64,000 nt of DNA from Antiquaquibacter soli (GTDB taxonomy: Bacteria > Actinomycetota > Actinomycetes > Actinomycetales > Microbacteriaceae): assembly GCF_030580675.1 (NCBI RefSeq), contig NZ_JAUQUB010000001.1, positions 1,798,001-1,862,000 on the forward strand, read 5' to 3'. Under the pieces are notes generated by a model. The model worked only from the letters and a program-made list of their open reading frames with translations, was not told where the DNA came from and searched no databases. Shown here in pieces: positions 38,443 to 43,990 of the stretch (position 1 is the stretch's first letter; each line of letters opens with the position of its first letter). The translations under genes were made by a program, and so were the position numbers.

Positions 38443-39243
38443 CTACTTCTGCACCTGCTCCGCGCCCGCGATGCGCTGCGCGACGTAGATCGGGATGATC
38501 GACACGAGCACGAGCACCACCGCGATGACGTTCACGATGGGCGCCTGGTTGGGTCGGAACAGGTTGTTGAGGATCCAGATCGGCAGCGTCGTGACCCCGC
38601 TGCCCGTCGTGAACGTCGTCACGATGATCTCGTCGAAGGACAGCGCGAACGCGAGCAGCGCCCCCGCGAGGAGGGCCGAGTGCAGCTGCGGGAACGTCAC
38701 GAAGCGGAACGTCGTCCACACTCCCGCTCCGAGATCGGCGGATGCCTCCTCCAACGAGGTGCCCATGCGCCGTAGCCGCGCGAGCACGTTGTTGAACACC
38801 GTCACGATGCAGAACGTGGCGTGCGCGACGATGATCGTGAAGAGGCCGAGCCGCACGTCGAGGATCGTGCGGAAGAAGTTGTTGAGCGCGATACCCGTGA
38901 CGATGCCGGGCAAGGCGATCGGGAGGATGACGAGCAGGCTCACCGCATCCCGACCGAAGAACCGGTAGCGCTGCAGCGCCAGAGAGATGAGGGTGCCGAG
39001 CGCGAGCGAGATCGCCGTCGCGGCGAGCGCGACTTGCGCGCTCGTGCCGATCGCCTCGAGCGCCCCCGGGTTCTGGAACGCCTTGCCCCACCACTCGAGG
39101 GTGAAGCCGGGCGGCGGCCACGTGAGGTTGACGCTCGTCGAGAACGAGTTGACGAACACGATGAGCAGGGGCAGGTAGACGACCGCCAGAACGATCGCGA
39201 CGACGACGCCGAGCGTGACCCGGGCGGTGCGGCTGAGCCTCAT
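38443..39243 (-). CDS. potC: polyamine-type ABC transporter permease (PotC-like)
   Basis: Inner-membrane permease of 266 residues with six helices and the EAA coupling loop (SLEEASADLGAGVWTTF). The C-terminal portion keeps the FDEIIVTTF motif seen in PotC and related permeases. It follows potB by 8 nt and completes the potA-D-B-C set. A GGGAGAGGC site precedes ATG 39243. Confidence 0.93.
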   Translation of the reverse strand: MRLSRTARVTLGVVVAIVLAVVYLPLLIVFVNSFSTSVNLTWPPPGFTLEWWGKAFQNPGALEAIGTSAQVALAATAISLALGTLISLALQRYRFFGRDAVSLLVILPIALPGIVTGIALNNFFRTILDVRLGLFTIIVAHATFCIVTVFNNVLARLRRMGTSLEEASADLGAGVWTTFRFVTFPQLHSALLAGALLAFALSFDEIIVTTFTTGSGVTTLPIWILNNLFRPNQAPIVNVIAVVLVLVSIIPIYVAQRIAGAEQVQK

Positions 39244-39251
39244 GCCTCTCC

Positions 39252-40172
39252 CTACAGGTTCTCGAGCGCGCCGGAGCGGCGGGCTGCGGTCAGGTAGACG
39301 ATCATGATCGCGACCGGGATCAGGGCGATCGCCGACGCGAGCGGCAGGTTGTTCGCCGCACCGACGTTCGTGTACACGAGGTTGCCGAGCAGCTGGTTGG
39401 CGCCGCCGACGATGTTGACGGTGATGTAGTCGCCGAGCGACAGCGAGAAGCTGAAGATAGAGGCCGCGATGATCGACGGCCACAGCATCGGCATGACCAC
39501 GGAGCCCATCGTGCGCCACGTCTTCGCCCCCAGATCGCTGGATGCCTCGAGAAGCGAGTCCGGCACCCGCTCGAGTCCCGCGTAGATCGGCAGGATCACG
39601 TAGGGCAGCCACAGGTACGAGAGCGTGATGACGACCGCCGGAAGCCCGTAGCCCGGGGACGAGCCGCCGAAGGGCGCGGTCATCCAGTCGACGACGCCGC
39701 CCTCCGCGAGCACCGAGCGCCACGCGTACGCCTTGACGAGGTAGCTCGCCCAGAGCGGCATGAGCACGGCGATGACGAGGATGCGCTGCAACCTCGGCCC
39801 CGCGACCTTAGCCATGAAGAACGCGACAGGGAGGGCGATCGCGATGTCGATGACCGTGACGAGGAGTGCGACGCCGACCGTGCGCAGTGTCACCGTCTGG
39901 TACAGCGAGCCGGTCACGACGGTGATGATGTTGTCGAGAGTGAACTCGGTGCGGACCTGACCGGTGAAGCTGTCGACGGTCCAGAAGGCGGTGATGAGCA
40001 GCGCGGCGAGCGCCACGACGTAGACCAGCCCCAACCAGAACAGGGGTGCTGTCAGCAGCAGCCCCAGTCGAACCCGGGCGTGCTGGCTGAGGAAGACCGA
40101 GATCCTCCTCGCCGGAGTGTCCCGCGGCTGCGGAACCCCGGCGGTCACGTGTGGCGTCGCCGCGCTGCTCAT
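39252..40172 (-). CDS. potB: polyamine-type ABC transporter permease (PotB-like)
   Basis: Inner-membrane permease of 306 residues. After a 35-residue cytoplasmic N-terminus it has about six helices and the EAA loop (LLEASSDLGAKTWRTMG), then SLGDYITVNIVGG. Sequence matches the PotB/HisMQ-like branch of spermidine/putrescine transporters. Downstream of potD by 10 nt. Confidence 0.93.
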   Translation of the reverse strand: MSSAATPHVTAGVPQPRDTPARRISVFLSQHARVRLGLLLTAPLFWLGLVYVVALAALLITAFWTVDSFTGQVRTEFTLDNIITVVTGSLYQTVTLRTVGVALLVTVIDIAIALPVAFFMAKVAGPRLQRILVIAVLMPLWASYLVKAYAWRSVLAEGGVVDWMTAPFGGSSPGYGLPAVVITLSYLWLPYVILPIYAGLERVPDSLLEASSDLGAKTWRTMGSVVMPMLWPSIIAASIFSFSLSLGDYITVNIVGGANQLLGNLVYTNVGAANNLPLASAIALIPVAIMIVYLTAARRSGALENL

Positions 40173-40182
40173 CTGCTCTCAG

Positions 40183-41352
40183 TTATCCCTTGATCTCCTG
40201 CCAGGCGGTCGTCCACGCGGCGTAGTCGGTGCACTCCACGTCGGTCCGGCCGTCGAGGCAGTCGGCGATCGGGGTCGACCAGTACCAGATCTGCGACGCG
40301 TAGTCGGCGTCGCCGGCGTGGTACGCCTCGCAGTCGTCGCGGAACTCGCACGCGGCCTGGCTCGACGGGGCCTCGCCGAAGTACGCGGTCGCCTGGGCGT
40401 TGGCCTCGGGGCTCGCGATGTAGTCGAGCCACGCGTAGGCGCAGTTCGGGCTCTTCGCCTGCGAGGAGATCATCCAGGTGTCCGACCAGCCGGTCGTGCC
40501 CTCGTCGGGCAGGACGACCTCGGTGTTGCCGGTGGTGATGGAGTTCTGGATGACCTGCCACGTCGTACCGACGACCGAGTCACCGGTCTCGAACGCCTGG
40601 ATCTCCTTGAGGTAGTCGCTCCAGTACTCGCCGATGTGCTGGCGCTGGGCCTTGAGCAGCTCGACGGCGGCAGCGAGCTGCGTCTCATCGAGCGCGTACG
40701 GGTTCTCGATGCCGAGCTCAGGCTGGGTCGCCATGAGGTACACGGCCGCGTCGGCGATGTAGATCGGCGAGTCGTACGCCGTCACCTTGCCGCTGTTGGC
40801 GGCTGCGTCATCGAAGACGGCGCTCCACGAGGTGAGGCCGTCGGGGAAGACGTCCGTGTTGTACATGAGCAGGTTCGCACCGTAGCCGTGCGGGATGCCG
40901 TAGGAGACGCCGTCGACGCTGTTCCACGACTGCATCTTGAGGAAGTCGAAGATGCCGTCGTAGTTCTTGAGCAGGTCGGTGTTGACGGGGGCGACCTCGC
41001 CGGCCGCGACGAGCCGCAGACTCGCGTCGCCAGATGCCGCGACCACGTCGTAGTCGCCCGTCTTCATGAGGCTGAAGGCCTCGTCGGACGTGCCGTAGGT
41101 CTTCGACTCGACCATGCAGCCGGTCTCCTCCTCGAACGCGCTCACCCAGTCGACCGAGGGGTCGTTGCTGCCGTCCTCGACGTAGCCGGGCCAGGCGAGG
41201 ATCGAGACGCTGCCCTCGTAGTCGCCGAGTTCGGTGGCCTCCTCGCCGGAGTCGCCGCCGCCCGACGCCGTTCCACAGGCCGTGAGGACGGCCACGGACG
41301 CGATCGCCAGTCCGGCGAAGAGCGTCGACCGTCGTGCTGTTGTCAATCGCAT
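40183..41352 (-). CDS. potD: extracellular polyamine-type solute-binding lipoprotein (PotD-like)
   Basis: A solute-binding protein of 389 residues with a lipoprotein signal peptide (lipobox VLTAC, Cys26). The mature domain fits the PotD/PotF group (WPGYVED, TYGTSDEAFSLMKTG, YGIPHGYGANLLMYN, YIASPEANAQATAYFGEAP). It probably binds putrescine, spermidine or a related amine. Four Cys cluster near the C-terminus (ACEFRDDCEAY, ADCLDGRTDVEC), which is unusual and suggests disulfides. An AGGAG site precedes ATG 41352. Confidence 0.93.
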   Translation of the reverse strand: MRLTTARRSTLFAGLAIASVAVLTACGTASGGGDSGEEATELGDYEGSVSILAWPGYVEDGSNDPSVDWVSAFEEETGCMVESKTYGTSDEAFSLMKTGDYDVVAASGDASLRLVAAGEVAPVNTDLLKNYDGIFDFLKMQSWNSVDGVSYGIPHGYGANLLMYNTDVFPDGLTSWSAVFDDAAANSGKVTAYDSPIYIADAAVYLMATQPELGIENPYALDETQLAAAVELLKAQRQHIGEYWSDYLKEIQAFETGDSVVGTTWQVIQNSITTGNTEVVLPDEGTTGWSDTWMISSQAKSPNCAYAWLDYIASPEANAQATAYFGEAPSSQAACEFRDDCEAYHAGDADYASQIWYWSTPIADCLDGRTDVECTDYAAWTTAWQEIKG

Positions 41353-41362
41353 TGCTGTGCTC

Positions 41363-42415
41363 CTAACTTGTCGCGGTGTTTGCGGGAACCGGGTCGAGCG
41401 ACACGAGGTCGGACGCAGCGAGCTGCACCCTCACCGCGTCGCCGCGCCGGTCGTCTTCGGAGCGGGATGACACGTTCTGCTCCAGCACGGAGATGCGCTT
41501 GCCCGAGGCGAGCTCGACGAGCAGTCTCGTGGCCGTGCCCACGTAGACCGCCTCCACGACGGTCCCCTCGAGGGAGATCGAGCCCTTCGCCGCGGCGGAG
41601 CCGGGCGGGTGGAGCGTGATCTTCTCGGGCCGGATCGAACGGGAGCCGGGCATCCCCAGCAACTGCTGCGACTGCTCGGCGTCGAAGATGTTCGACGTGC
41701 CGACGAAGGAGGCGACGAACGGAGACTGCGGGTGCTCGTAGATCTCGCGGGGGGTGCCGAGCTGTTCGATGCGCCCCTGGTTGAACACCGCGATGCGGTC
41801 GCTGAGCGTGAGCGCCTCCTCCTGGTCGTGCGTCACGAAGATGAAGGTGATGCCGAGCGAGCGCTGCAGCTCTTTGAGCTCGACCTGCATCTGCTCGCGG
41901 AGCTTGAGGTCGAGGGCCCCGAGGGGCTCGTCGAGGAGGAGCACCTTCGGCTGTACGACCGTCGCGCGCGCGAGCGCGACGCGCTGCCGCTGACCCCCGG
42001 AGAGCTGAGTCGGCTTGCGACCGCCGTAGCCGGCGAGGGCGACGGATGCGAGTGCCGCCTCGGCCCTCTCCCGGCGCTCCTTCTTGCCCACTCCCCGCAC
42101 GCGCAGACCGTAGGCGACGTTGTCGAGCACCGTCATGTGCGGGAAGAGCGCATAGTCCTGGAAGACCGTGTTGACGTCTCGGTCGAAGGGAGCGCGGCGG
42201 GTGACATCCTGACCCTGAAGCTCGACGGTGCCCGACGTCGGCAGCTCGAAGCCGGCGATGAGCCGCAGCACGGTGGTCTTGCCGCTGCCCGACGGCCCGA
42301 GCATGGAGAAGAACTCCCCCTCGGCGATGTCGAGATCGAGGTTGTCGACCGCGTGGACCTCCCCGAAAGTCTTGGTCAGAGCTGTGAGCCTGATCGCAGG
42401 CGTAACCGATGTCAC
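41363..42415 (-). CDS. potA: polyamine-type ABC transporter ATPase (PotA-like)
   Basis: A 350-residue ATPase: Walker [11 protein letters not shown] loop [13 protein letters not shown], signature [14 protein letters not shown], Walker [13 protein letters not shown], switch His in [11 protein letters not shown]-terminal TOBE-like regulatory domain (about 250-350) follows. GTG 42415 has an AAGGAGG site. It is the first gene of the potA-D-B-C operon, divergent from the GntR regulator. Confidence 0.95.
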
Positions 42416-42444
42416 CCAGGGCCTCCTTGCCTGTCCTGTAGTAA

Positions 42445-42471
42445 ATCATATGGAAGCAGATGTCTTGCAAG
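42445..42471 (-). promoter_or_regulatory. potA promoter -10 and nearby palindrome
   Basis: TATGAT (minus strand, 42445-42450) is a near-consensus -10 upstream of potA. The 8-bp palindrome CTTGCAAG (42464-42471) lies in the -35 area and could bind the divergently encoded GntR regulator. On the plus strand a TACGGT (42485-42490) may serve the gntR gene. Confidence 0.4.
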
Positions 42472-42521
42472 TCTCGGGGATGTTACGGTCGTGTCACGGC
42501 CCCGACGACGAGGAACGCCCC

Positions 42522-43271
42522 ATGCCGCAGTCCATCCGCTCGACCACTGCCGCCCGCGCGGCCGTGTTCGCGCCGCTCGGCGGGGCGGGCAGGGCGGAAC
42601 TCGTCGCCCAACGACTGACCGATGCGATCGAGCTCGGACTGCTCTCCTCCGGCGAGCGACTGCCCAGTGAGGCGGAGATGGCGCGGCAGTTCGGGGTCGC
42701 GATCGTGACCGCCCGCGAGGCGCTCGAGGCGCTGCGCGAGGCCGGTCTCGTGGAGACCAAGCGCGGTCGCGACGGGGGCAGCTACGTGCTCGCGGGCAGC
42801 CCCGAGTCGAGGATCACACGGCGCGTGGCATCCCTCTCCCGCGTCGAGCTGCGCGACATGGGCGTCTATTACACGGCCATCGCCGCGATGTCGGCAGAGC
42901 TCGCGGCCGACCGCGCGACCGACGACGACATCGCCCACCTGCGGGCGACCGTCGATGCAGCGGATGTCGACTCGCAGCAGTCGATGCGCCGAGGAGAGGG
43001 CACCTTCCGGCTCGAGGTCGCCGCGCTCGCGCAGTCCGCGCGACTCGTGCGCGAGGAGCTACGACTGCAAGCGGAGTTCGCCCCGCTGCTGTGGTTGTGC
43101 CTGCGCGATGGCGAGTACCGCGTGGCGAGCCGCGCCGCTCACCTCGACGTCGTCGCGGCGATCGAGGCCGTGGACGGCGAGGCGGCGCGCCGCGCCACTA
43201 CTGCGCACATCGGTCAGGCCATAGAGTGGCTGCTCGACACCAAGGCGGACCTCGAGAGGACAGCGACATGA
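42522..43271 (+). CDS. GntR/FadR-family transcriptional regulator
   Basis: A 249-residue regulator. The N-terminal winged helix (about 20-90) contains LPSEAEMARQFGVAIVTAREALEALREAGLV split over the recognition helix and GGSYV wing. The C-terminal all-helical part (about 105-245) resembles an FCD ligand-binding domain, but the metal-binding His set is not obvious. It is divergent from potA and coupled by ATGA to the cache-domain gene, so it most likely controls the polyamine-type transporter. Confidence 0.92.
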   Translation: MPQSIRSTTAARAAVFAPLGGAGRAELVAQRLTDAIELGLLSSGERLPSEAEMARQFGVAIVTAREALEALREAGLVETKRGRDGGSYVLAGSPESRITRRVASLSRVELRDMGVYYTAIAAMSAELAADRATDDDIAHLRATVDAADVDSQQSMRRGEGTFRLEVAALAQSARLVREELRLQAEFAPLLWLCLRDGEYRVASRAAHLDVVAAIEAVDGEAARRATTAHIGQAIEWLLDTKADLERTAT

Positions 43272-43990
43272 CGACGACTGCTGACCTCGCCCTGCAGAAG
43301 TGCCTCGACGCGATCGCCACGACGTTCGACTCCGTCTTCGCGGAGATCGAGGGCTGGCGCGCCGTGATCGAGCAGCGGATCGCCGACGCGGCCGGGATGC
43401 TGCGCGCCGCCGAGCTCGATGCGCTTGTCGAGAACCTCGTCGTCGCCGAGCTCGCCGCCCCTGGTGCCCTCATCATCGGAGCGGGTGCCGTCGCGGCCCC
43501 CGGCTTCCTCGACGACGCCCCCTGGCACCTGGCGTGGTGGCTCGGCCATGCGAACACCTTCGGGCTGGGCTCGGCCGACCCGTCCGTTCGGCGGCTCGAG
43601 GCCGAGGAGGATCCTGCCTCGGACAGCTTCCGCGACTACACCGCGCTGGAGTGGTGGCGCGTTCCGGCCGAGACCGGCACCCGACACATCACGGGGCCCT
43701 ACGTCGACTACCTGTGCACCGACGACTACACGCTCACCCTCACCATGCCCGTGCGGTTCGAGCATCGGCTCGTCGGGGTGGTGGGCGCCGACCTCTACGT
43801 CAACGACGTCGAGCGCGCGCTCCTGCCGCCGGTGCGCTCGATCGGGGGCAGCGCGACGCTCATGAACGCCTCGCGCCGCGTACTCGTCTCGACCGACCCG
43901 CACCGGCCGACCGGCTCGCTGCTGCGCGACGCGGGAGACTCGCACGTGCTTCCCGTCGGCGCCTCCAGCCTGCTGCTCGTCGTCGGATGA
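43268..43990 (+). CDS. soluble cache (PDC)-like sensor domain protein
   Basis: A 240-residue protein. The N-terminal 90 residues are helical. They are followed by a PDC/cache-like beta sheet domain: DDAPWHLAWWLGH, SFRDYTALEWWRVP, TGPYVDYLCTDDYTLTLTMPV, and RLVGVVGADLYVNDVERAL, which closely resembles the strand pair that forms the ligand pocket in dCache/sCache sensors. There is no signal peptide or membrane helix, whereas cache domains are normally extracytoplasmic. The ATG overlaps the gntR stop by 4 nt, implying the two proteins work together. Confidence 0.85.
   Translation: MTTTADLALQKCLDAIATTFDSVFAEIEGWRAVIEQRIADAAGMLRAAELDALVENLVVAELAAPGALIIGAGAVAAPGFLDDAPWHLAWWLGHANTFGLGSADPSVRRLEAEEDPASDSFRDYTALEWWRVPAETGTRHITGPYVDYLCTDDYTLTLTMPVRFEHRLVGVVGADLYVNDVERALLPPVRSIGGSATLMNASRRVLVSTDPHRPTGSLLRDAGDSHVLPVGASSLLLVVG

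Follow-up and report, generated by a model that had tools for sequence, protein, structure and literature searches.

No extracellular sensor is commoner in bacteria than the cache domain. In the genome of Antiquaquibacter soli, a gene for a cache-like protein follows a gntR-type regulatory gene beside a transporter operon of the polyamine class, within the 64,000-nucleotide stretch of DNA that we analysed (the window). Can a domain of this kind act inside the cell as the sensory part of a transcription factor, and if so, which signal would it report? A preliminary description of the window proposed that the two genes encode a two-protein regulator, in which a cytosolic cache sensor works with a DNA-binding partner that faces potABCD. 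Our comparison supports this proposal through the pairing of the two genes, their natural fusion, a conserved repeat, a predicted amine-type pocket and neighbouring genes of amine catabolism. We therefore favour, at a probability of roughly 0.68, the reading that GntR and the cache protein are the two polypeptides of a single regulator, in which the cache protein would sense a cytosolic amine and the complex would control potADBC. The features of the locus are collected in Table 1.

Table 1. Features of the pot-gntR-cache locus, in positions of the window
Feature	Coordinates	Strand	Basis
potC-like permease	38443..39243	-	ORF; conserved in 56/60 loci
potB-like permease	39252..40172	-	ORF; conserved in 56/60 loci
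potD/ydcS-like substrate-binding lipoprotein	40183..41352	-	327 bits with the YdcS model, short of its cut-off (725); solved relatives of PotD/PotF type
potA-like ABC ATPase, divergent from gntR	41363..42415	-	PotA models 363-390 bits; 59/60 loci
Possible potA -10 element TATGAT, overlapped by the repeat	42445..42450	-	Inferred from sequence
Candidate operator, inverted repeat CATATG-GAAG-CAGATG	42447..42462		Conservation in 60 intergenic regions
GlnR-box-like element GTTAC-GGTCGT-GTCAC	42482..42497		Conserved in related intergenic regions
gntR, FadR/FCD-type GntR regulator, 249 aa	42522..43271	+	Pfam/NCBIfam, AlphaFold model, column counts
Predicted stand-alone cytosolic dCache (PDC) sensor, 240 aa	43268..43990	+	PF22673 match, model, structural matches, conservation

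As the preliminary description had stated, the ATG of the cache gene overlaps the gntR stop codon, and a polyamine transporter adjoins the pair. The two codons share the bases ATGA, and the transporter genes run potA-potD-potB-potC divergently from gntR. A survey of gntR-cache-pot neighbourhoods had been suggested as a check and bore the arrangement out. It comprised 60 loci from one scan of named genomes (Pseudolysinimonas, Salinibacterium, Leifsonia, Cryobacterium, Agromyces, Microbacterium, Homoserinibacter and Demequina); as the query was the pot-linked pair, this set is biased towards pot-linked relatives. The gntR gene lies directly upstream of the cache gene on the same strand in 60/60 of these loci, at a spacing within 60 nt in 59/60 and with the identical -4 overlap in 44/60. 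The divergent potA-D-B-C operon is complete in 56/60, and three more loci are cut by contig ends with potA still visible. The only named relative without pot genes is L033, in which the gene upstream of gntR, co-oriented with it, encodes an F420-dependent luciferase-like monooxygenase (L033:5179-7738).

Every cache locus that we examined had an adjacent and co-oriented gntR gene. A cache homologue was present in 33 of 120 Microbacteriaceae genomes, and when the same genomes were searched for relatives of GntR at E ≤ 1e-20, 42 of the 44 assessable genes adjoined a cache gene, a 45th being cut by a contig end. A phylum-wide, alignment-based search, in which six candidates per genome were scored, found cache homologues in at least 8 of 396 genomes. 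We could rule out that the cache gene is a chemoreceptor fragment or a pseudogene, as its frame, its pairing and its pocket residues are kept in Microbacteriaceae, Demequina, Georgenia and Nonomuraea. One genome (G078) carries three separate GntR-cache pairs (L011, L104 and L123), and therefore specificity between partners must exist.

In one genus, GntR and the cache protein are fused in frame into a single chain of 488-514 aa in 8/8 genomes (L013 and L179-L185). A sequencing error was ruled out as the source of this fusion, since all eight genomes of the genus are fused and their linkers vary in length. This fusion is our strongest indication of joint action by the two proteins and of a cache domain that operates in the cytosol.

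The cache protein was then examined for its fold and location. It matches PF22673 (MCP-like_PDC_1) at 33.7 bits (cut-off 27), and its AlphaFold model (pLDDT 92.8, pTM 0.89) shows a dCache domain that is complete, if somewhat short, and lacks a membrane helix. The model has the long N-terminal helix followed by PAS-like modules that defines dCache domains, and matches solved members significantly. PctD (choline), McpU, McpX, CqsR, TlpQ and PacA, all amine receptors, are the top structural matches (Z 18.6-19.2), led by PctD and McpU-putrescine (Z 19.2 over 219 residues each) and followed by McpX, CqsR-ethanolamine and TlpQ-histamine (Z 18.9 each); PctA scored lower (16.3). By sequence, the closest relatives are PctA-like, PctA being an amino-acid receptor. 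The proposal had been said to fall if structure prediction gave no cache/PDC fold, and the fold is present. The cache protein had further been described as free of a signal peptide and a membrane helix, and with respect to the helix this was confirmed: no N-terminal membrane helix was found in the first 45 residues, where the best 19-residue window reached a hydrophobicity of 0.99, compared with 1.94 for the N-terminus of McpX as control. The most hydrophobic segment, residues 57-75 (1.97), falls in a helix and a core strand of the predicted fold. The hydrophobicity scan and the predicted fold together rule out a membrane-anchored protein.

GntR is a member of the FadR/FCD subfamily, with matches to PF00392 (51.4 bits) and the FCD domain PF07729 (45.6 bits) that both exceed their cut-offs, and its AlphaFold model (pLDDT 89.3) found the FCD-type structures VanR, NanR and TM0439. 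The three His of NanR align with R163, H207 and H229, so that the FCD His triad, which is not a requirement for membership of the subfamily, is incomplete. Among 80 relatives, columns 163, 207 and 229 hold His in only 4, 15 and 32, respectively. By comparison, FCD regulators elsewhere in the Antiquaquibacter soli genome mostly retain the triad, among the correctly read frames. This erosion is in keeping with a transfer of sensing from the regulator to a partner protein. GntR could also sense a small effector of its own through the FCD domain, with the cache protein adding a second, accessory signal: it could be an anti-repressor or co-repressor that depends on amines and acts on an otherwise ordinary regulator. 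The FCD domain is indeed folded and intact, two of the three His (H207 and H229) remain, and a few relatives of GntR have no cache gene beside them. We nevertheless regard this explanation as unlikely, given how rarely the His columns are kept in this family when most FCD regulators of the genome keep them, and given that the fusion and the near-complete pairing suggest that the cache protein is the essential sensor.

The predicted amine pocket of the cache protein consists of W90/W91, W129/W130, Y145, D147, T157 and D175. Tyr208, Asp210 and Asp239 (TlpQ numbering), or their equivalents, hold the primary amino group of the ligand in TlpQ and McpU (PMC6234866). Y145, D147 and D175 align with these three residues, giving a predicted site of the McpU/TlpQ type; for this and the following comparisons, the residue numbers of PctA, TlpQ and McpX were placed on printed alignments by matching the numbers in the papers. 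Among 82 cache relatives, D147 and D175 are invariant (82/82 each) and Y145 is Tyr in 77/82, and the three positions are also kept in nearly all distant members. PctA shares them, for an alpha-amino group, and they consequently mark a primary amino group and not polyamines alone. PctA also has Arg126, which binds the ligand carboxylate. This Arg, characteristic of dCache_1AA domains, aligns with L127 of the cache protein, which is Leu in 80/82 relatives.

We also compared the pocket with the published amine motif. According to the available text of PMC10104139, the dCache_1AM motif comprises ligand-binding W155, F188 and D235, a hydrophobic M215 and an R103/D133 pair above the pocket (PctD numbering). 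The three ligand-binding positions correspond to W90, W129 and D175, each invariant in the 82 sequences, with another aromatic residue in place of F188. In the sequence alignment, the R103/D133 pair was not found as a conserved feature, the corresponding R46 and D82 being unconserved in the family, nor was the hydrophobic M215, which is replaced by T155 (Thr in 74/82) and is hydrophobic only in some distant relatives. The pocket thus appears to match the dCache_1AM motif in part and to resemble the primary-amine site of McpU and TlpQ more closely. In the clade of the cache protein, position 150 is almost always Cys (C150) and position 155 mostly Thr (T155), while in several distant pairs Gly and a hydrophobic residue take their places; this difference between clades may reflect two ligand classes.

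With Y145, D147, D175 and the aromatic cage kept and Leu at the Arg126 position, the pocket best fits a primary amine that lacks a carboxylate, and we consider putrescine or a related polyamine the most likely ligand. It is improbable that the pair senses an amino acid or another carboxylate ligand (e.g. GABA or ornithine) in place of a polyamine: PctA is the closest receptor by sequence, genes of the GABA pathway adjoin paralogous pairs, and Arg occupies the 127 position in a few distant members, yet the carboxylate Arg of PctA is Leu throughout nearly all of the clade, and the adjoining transporter belongs to the polyamine class. Given that PctA is the best sequence relative and that Arg occurs at 127 in some distant relatives, the ligand class may vary across the wider family.

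The gene neighbourhoods are consistent with an amine signal. The substrate-binding protein of the transporter belongs to the YdcS/PotD/PotF class. Away from pot, paralogous pairs adjoin an amino-acid permease or succinate-semialdehyde-type aldehyde dehydrogenases, and other neighbours are a gamma-glutamylputrescine-synthetase-like homologue of glutamine synthetase and a gamma-glutamyl-GABA-hydrolase-like protein; as several of these matches are below equivalog cut-offs, the names are class-level. Beside the fused gene (L013/L100, 489 aa), we found a copper amine oxidase, a GABA transaminase, an aminobutyraldehyde dehydrogenase and a permease, the first three each exceeding the cut-off of at least one model. 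Taken together, these genes link the regulator family to the uptake and degradation of amines. It is very improbable that the cache protein shares no more than its expression with GntR, makes no contact with it and binds amines in the cytosol independently (as an amine buffer or chaperone, or to modulate the transporter): co-transcription and translational coupling by themselves mean shared expression and not contact, and the potADBC neighbourhood would suit a transport modulator too, but the genus-wide fusion joins the cache domain to the regulator and to no transporter subunit, and pairs without pot genes retain their gntR neighbour.

The candidate operator lies within AAATCATATGGAAGCAGATGT (42443-42463), 31 nt before the potA start codon. 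The 16-bp repeat CATATG-N4-CAGATG was found within two mismatches in 60/60 potA-gntR intergenic regions (no mismatch in 32, one in 27 and two in 1). At most one mismatch to the repeat occurred in 0.23% of shuffled sequences, a comparison that overstates significance because the 60 regions are related by descent. Across these regions the flanks of the repeat have drifted and the repeat itself has not, and their alignment gave AAAT-CATATG-GAWC-CAGATG-T, with the degenerate form CATMTG-N4-CAKATG. A pattern search found this single site in the 3.22-Mb genome and none with the reversed control, and no second copy elsewhere in the genome with up to two mismatches. We infer that GntR binds this repeat. 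FadR-subfamily operators are usually palindromes with a GTM-N0-1-KAC core, though some members, NanR and BioR among them, are known exceptions (PMC4494728); as a putative GntR site, CATMTG-N4-CAKATG departs from this core. Two successive copies of the repeat are present in L038, L044, L048, L050 and L051 (mostly Agromyces), which suggests cooperative binding or separate control of the two operons. In L101-L108, pairs that adjoin CoA-transferase, acyl-CoA dehydrogenase and aldehyde dehydrogenase genes, a different common repeat stands upstream of gntR, roughly TTCATYCTA-N4-5-GAATGA.

Two further elements were identified in the same region. At the possible -10 element of potA, AATCATATG is conserved in most loci. 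A promoter scan found no full sigma-70 site for potA, and therefore occlusion as the mode of repression is a guess. The second element fits the GlnR box consensus of S. venezuelae, GTnAC-n6-GTnAC (PMC10704036). A box of this type occurs in 37/60 potA-gntR intergenic regions, compared with 1.9% in shuffles, and nitrogen control of the same promoters is possible.

The anatomy of the locus, the obligate pairing, the genus-wide fusion and the conservation of the repeat are read directly from the genomes, and we infer the ligand, the contact between the proteins, and repression with its polarity. GntR, with its winged helix and degenerate FCD domain, would dimerise on the repeat, covering the likely -10 region of potA, and would control both potADBC and its own operon. 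The cache protein would be a dCache ligand-binding domain relocated to the cytosol, where it would bind the amine imported by PotADBC through Y145, D147 and D175 and the aromatic cage of W90/W91 and W129/W130. The bound state would be relayed to GntR by direct contact and, in the presence of the amine, repression of uptake would most likely be released. More broadly, we think it somewhat more probable than the opposite that a one-component regulator was split here: the DNA-binding protein would have lost its effector site, and a chemoreceptor domain, now an McpU-like polyamine sensor of the cytosol, would have become a detachable sensory subunit, a general actinobacterial solution for many amine pathways that was re-fused in one genus. 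If true, a stand-alone cytosolic cache protein as the sensory subunit of a transcription factor would show how Cache domains can be reused. It would also add to the few regulators known in Actinobacteria for the uptake and catabolism of polyamines. The fusion, the repeat and the candidate ligand residues make the mechanism directly testable, and the GntR-cache pair could serve as an amine biosensor.

Each half of the proposed regulator has known counterparts. The cache protein shares with McpU and TlpQ the dCache fold (Z 19.2 and 18.9) and the Tyr-x-Asp and distal Asp for the primary amino group. The domains of McpU and TlpQ are periplasmic parts of membrane chemoreceptors, whereas the cache protein is predicted to be cytosolic, anchor-free and paired with a transcription factor. 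GntR has the winged helix and FCD fold in common with VanR, NanR, PdhR and LldR; it differs in its eroded His triad, in sensing that is apparently delegated to a second protein, and in the unusual candidate operator. Control of mono- and polyamine use in Actinobacteria is also known from EpuRI and EpuRII of Streptomyces coelicolor, which regulate gamma-glutamylpolyamine synthetase genes, with epuRI divergent from its target glnA4 (PMC6529630, PMC8998196). Neither paper mentions GntR membership or a cache partner for EpuRI and EpuRII, and homology to the pair is unconfirmed there.

The closest precedent is that of Cerna-Vargas et al. 2023 (PMC10104139), the available text of which describes dCache_1AM proteins of Actinobacteria that stand alone inside the cell and share a two-gene operon with a GntR-type factor. 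In that text, no protein of this type is among those tested, and no function, target, operator or test of the partner is given. Their operons share with ours the architecture, the phylum and the idea that an extracellular domain is reused for intracellular amine sensing, and it is by architecture, phylum and description that we equate them with the Antiquaquibacter pair family. Of the dCache_1AM features set out there, the Antiquaquibacter clade retains the final Asp and the aromatic cage, is without the R103/D133 pair, and has Thr in place of the hydrophobic residue. On the basis of that description, the pair type has been known since 2023 and its mechanism is unusual; new here are the conserved repeat, the association with pot and amine-catabolism genes, the fusion throughout one genus, the erosion of the FCD site and the predicted McpU/TlpQ-like pocket.
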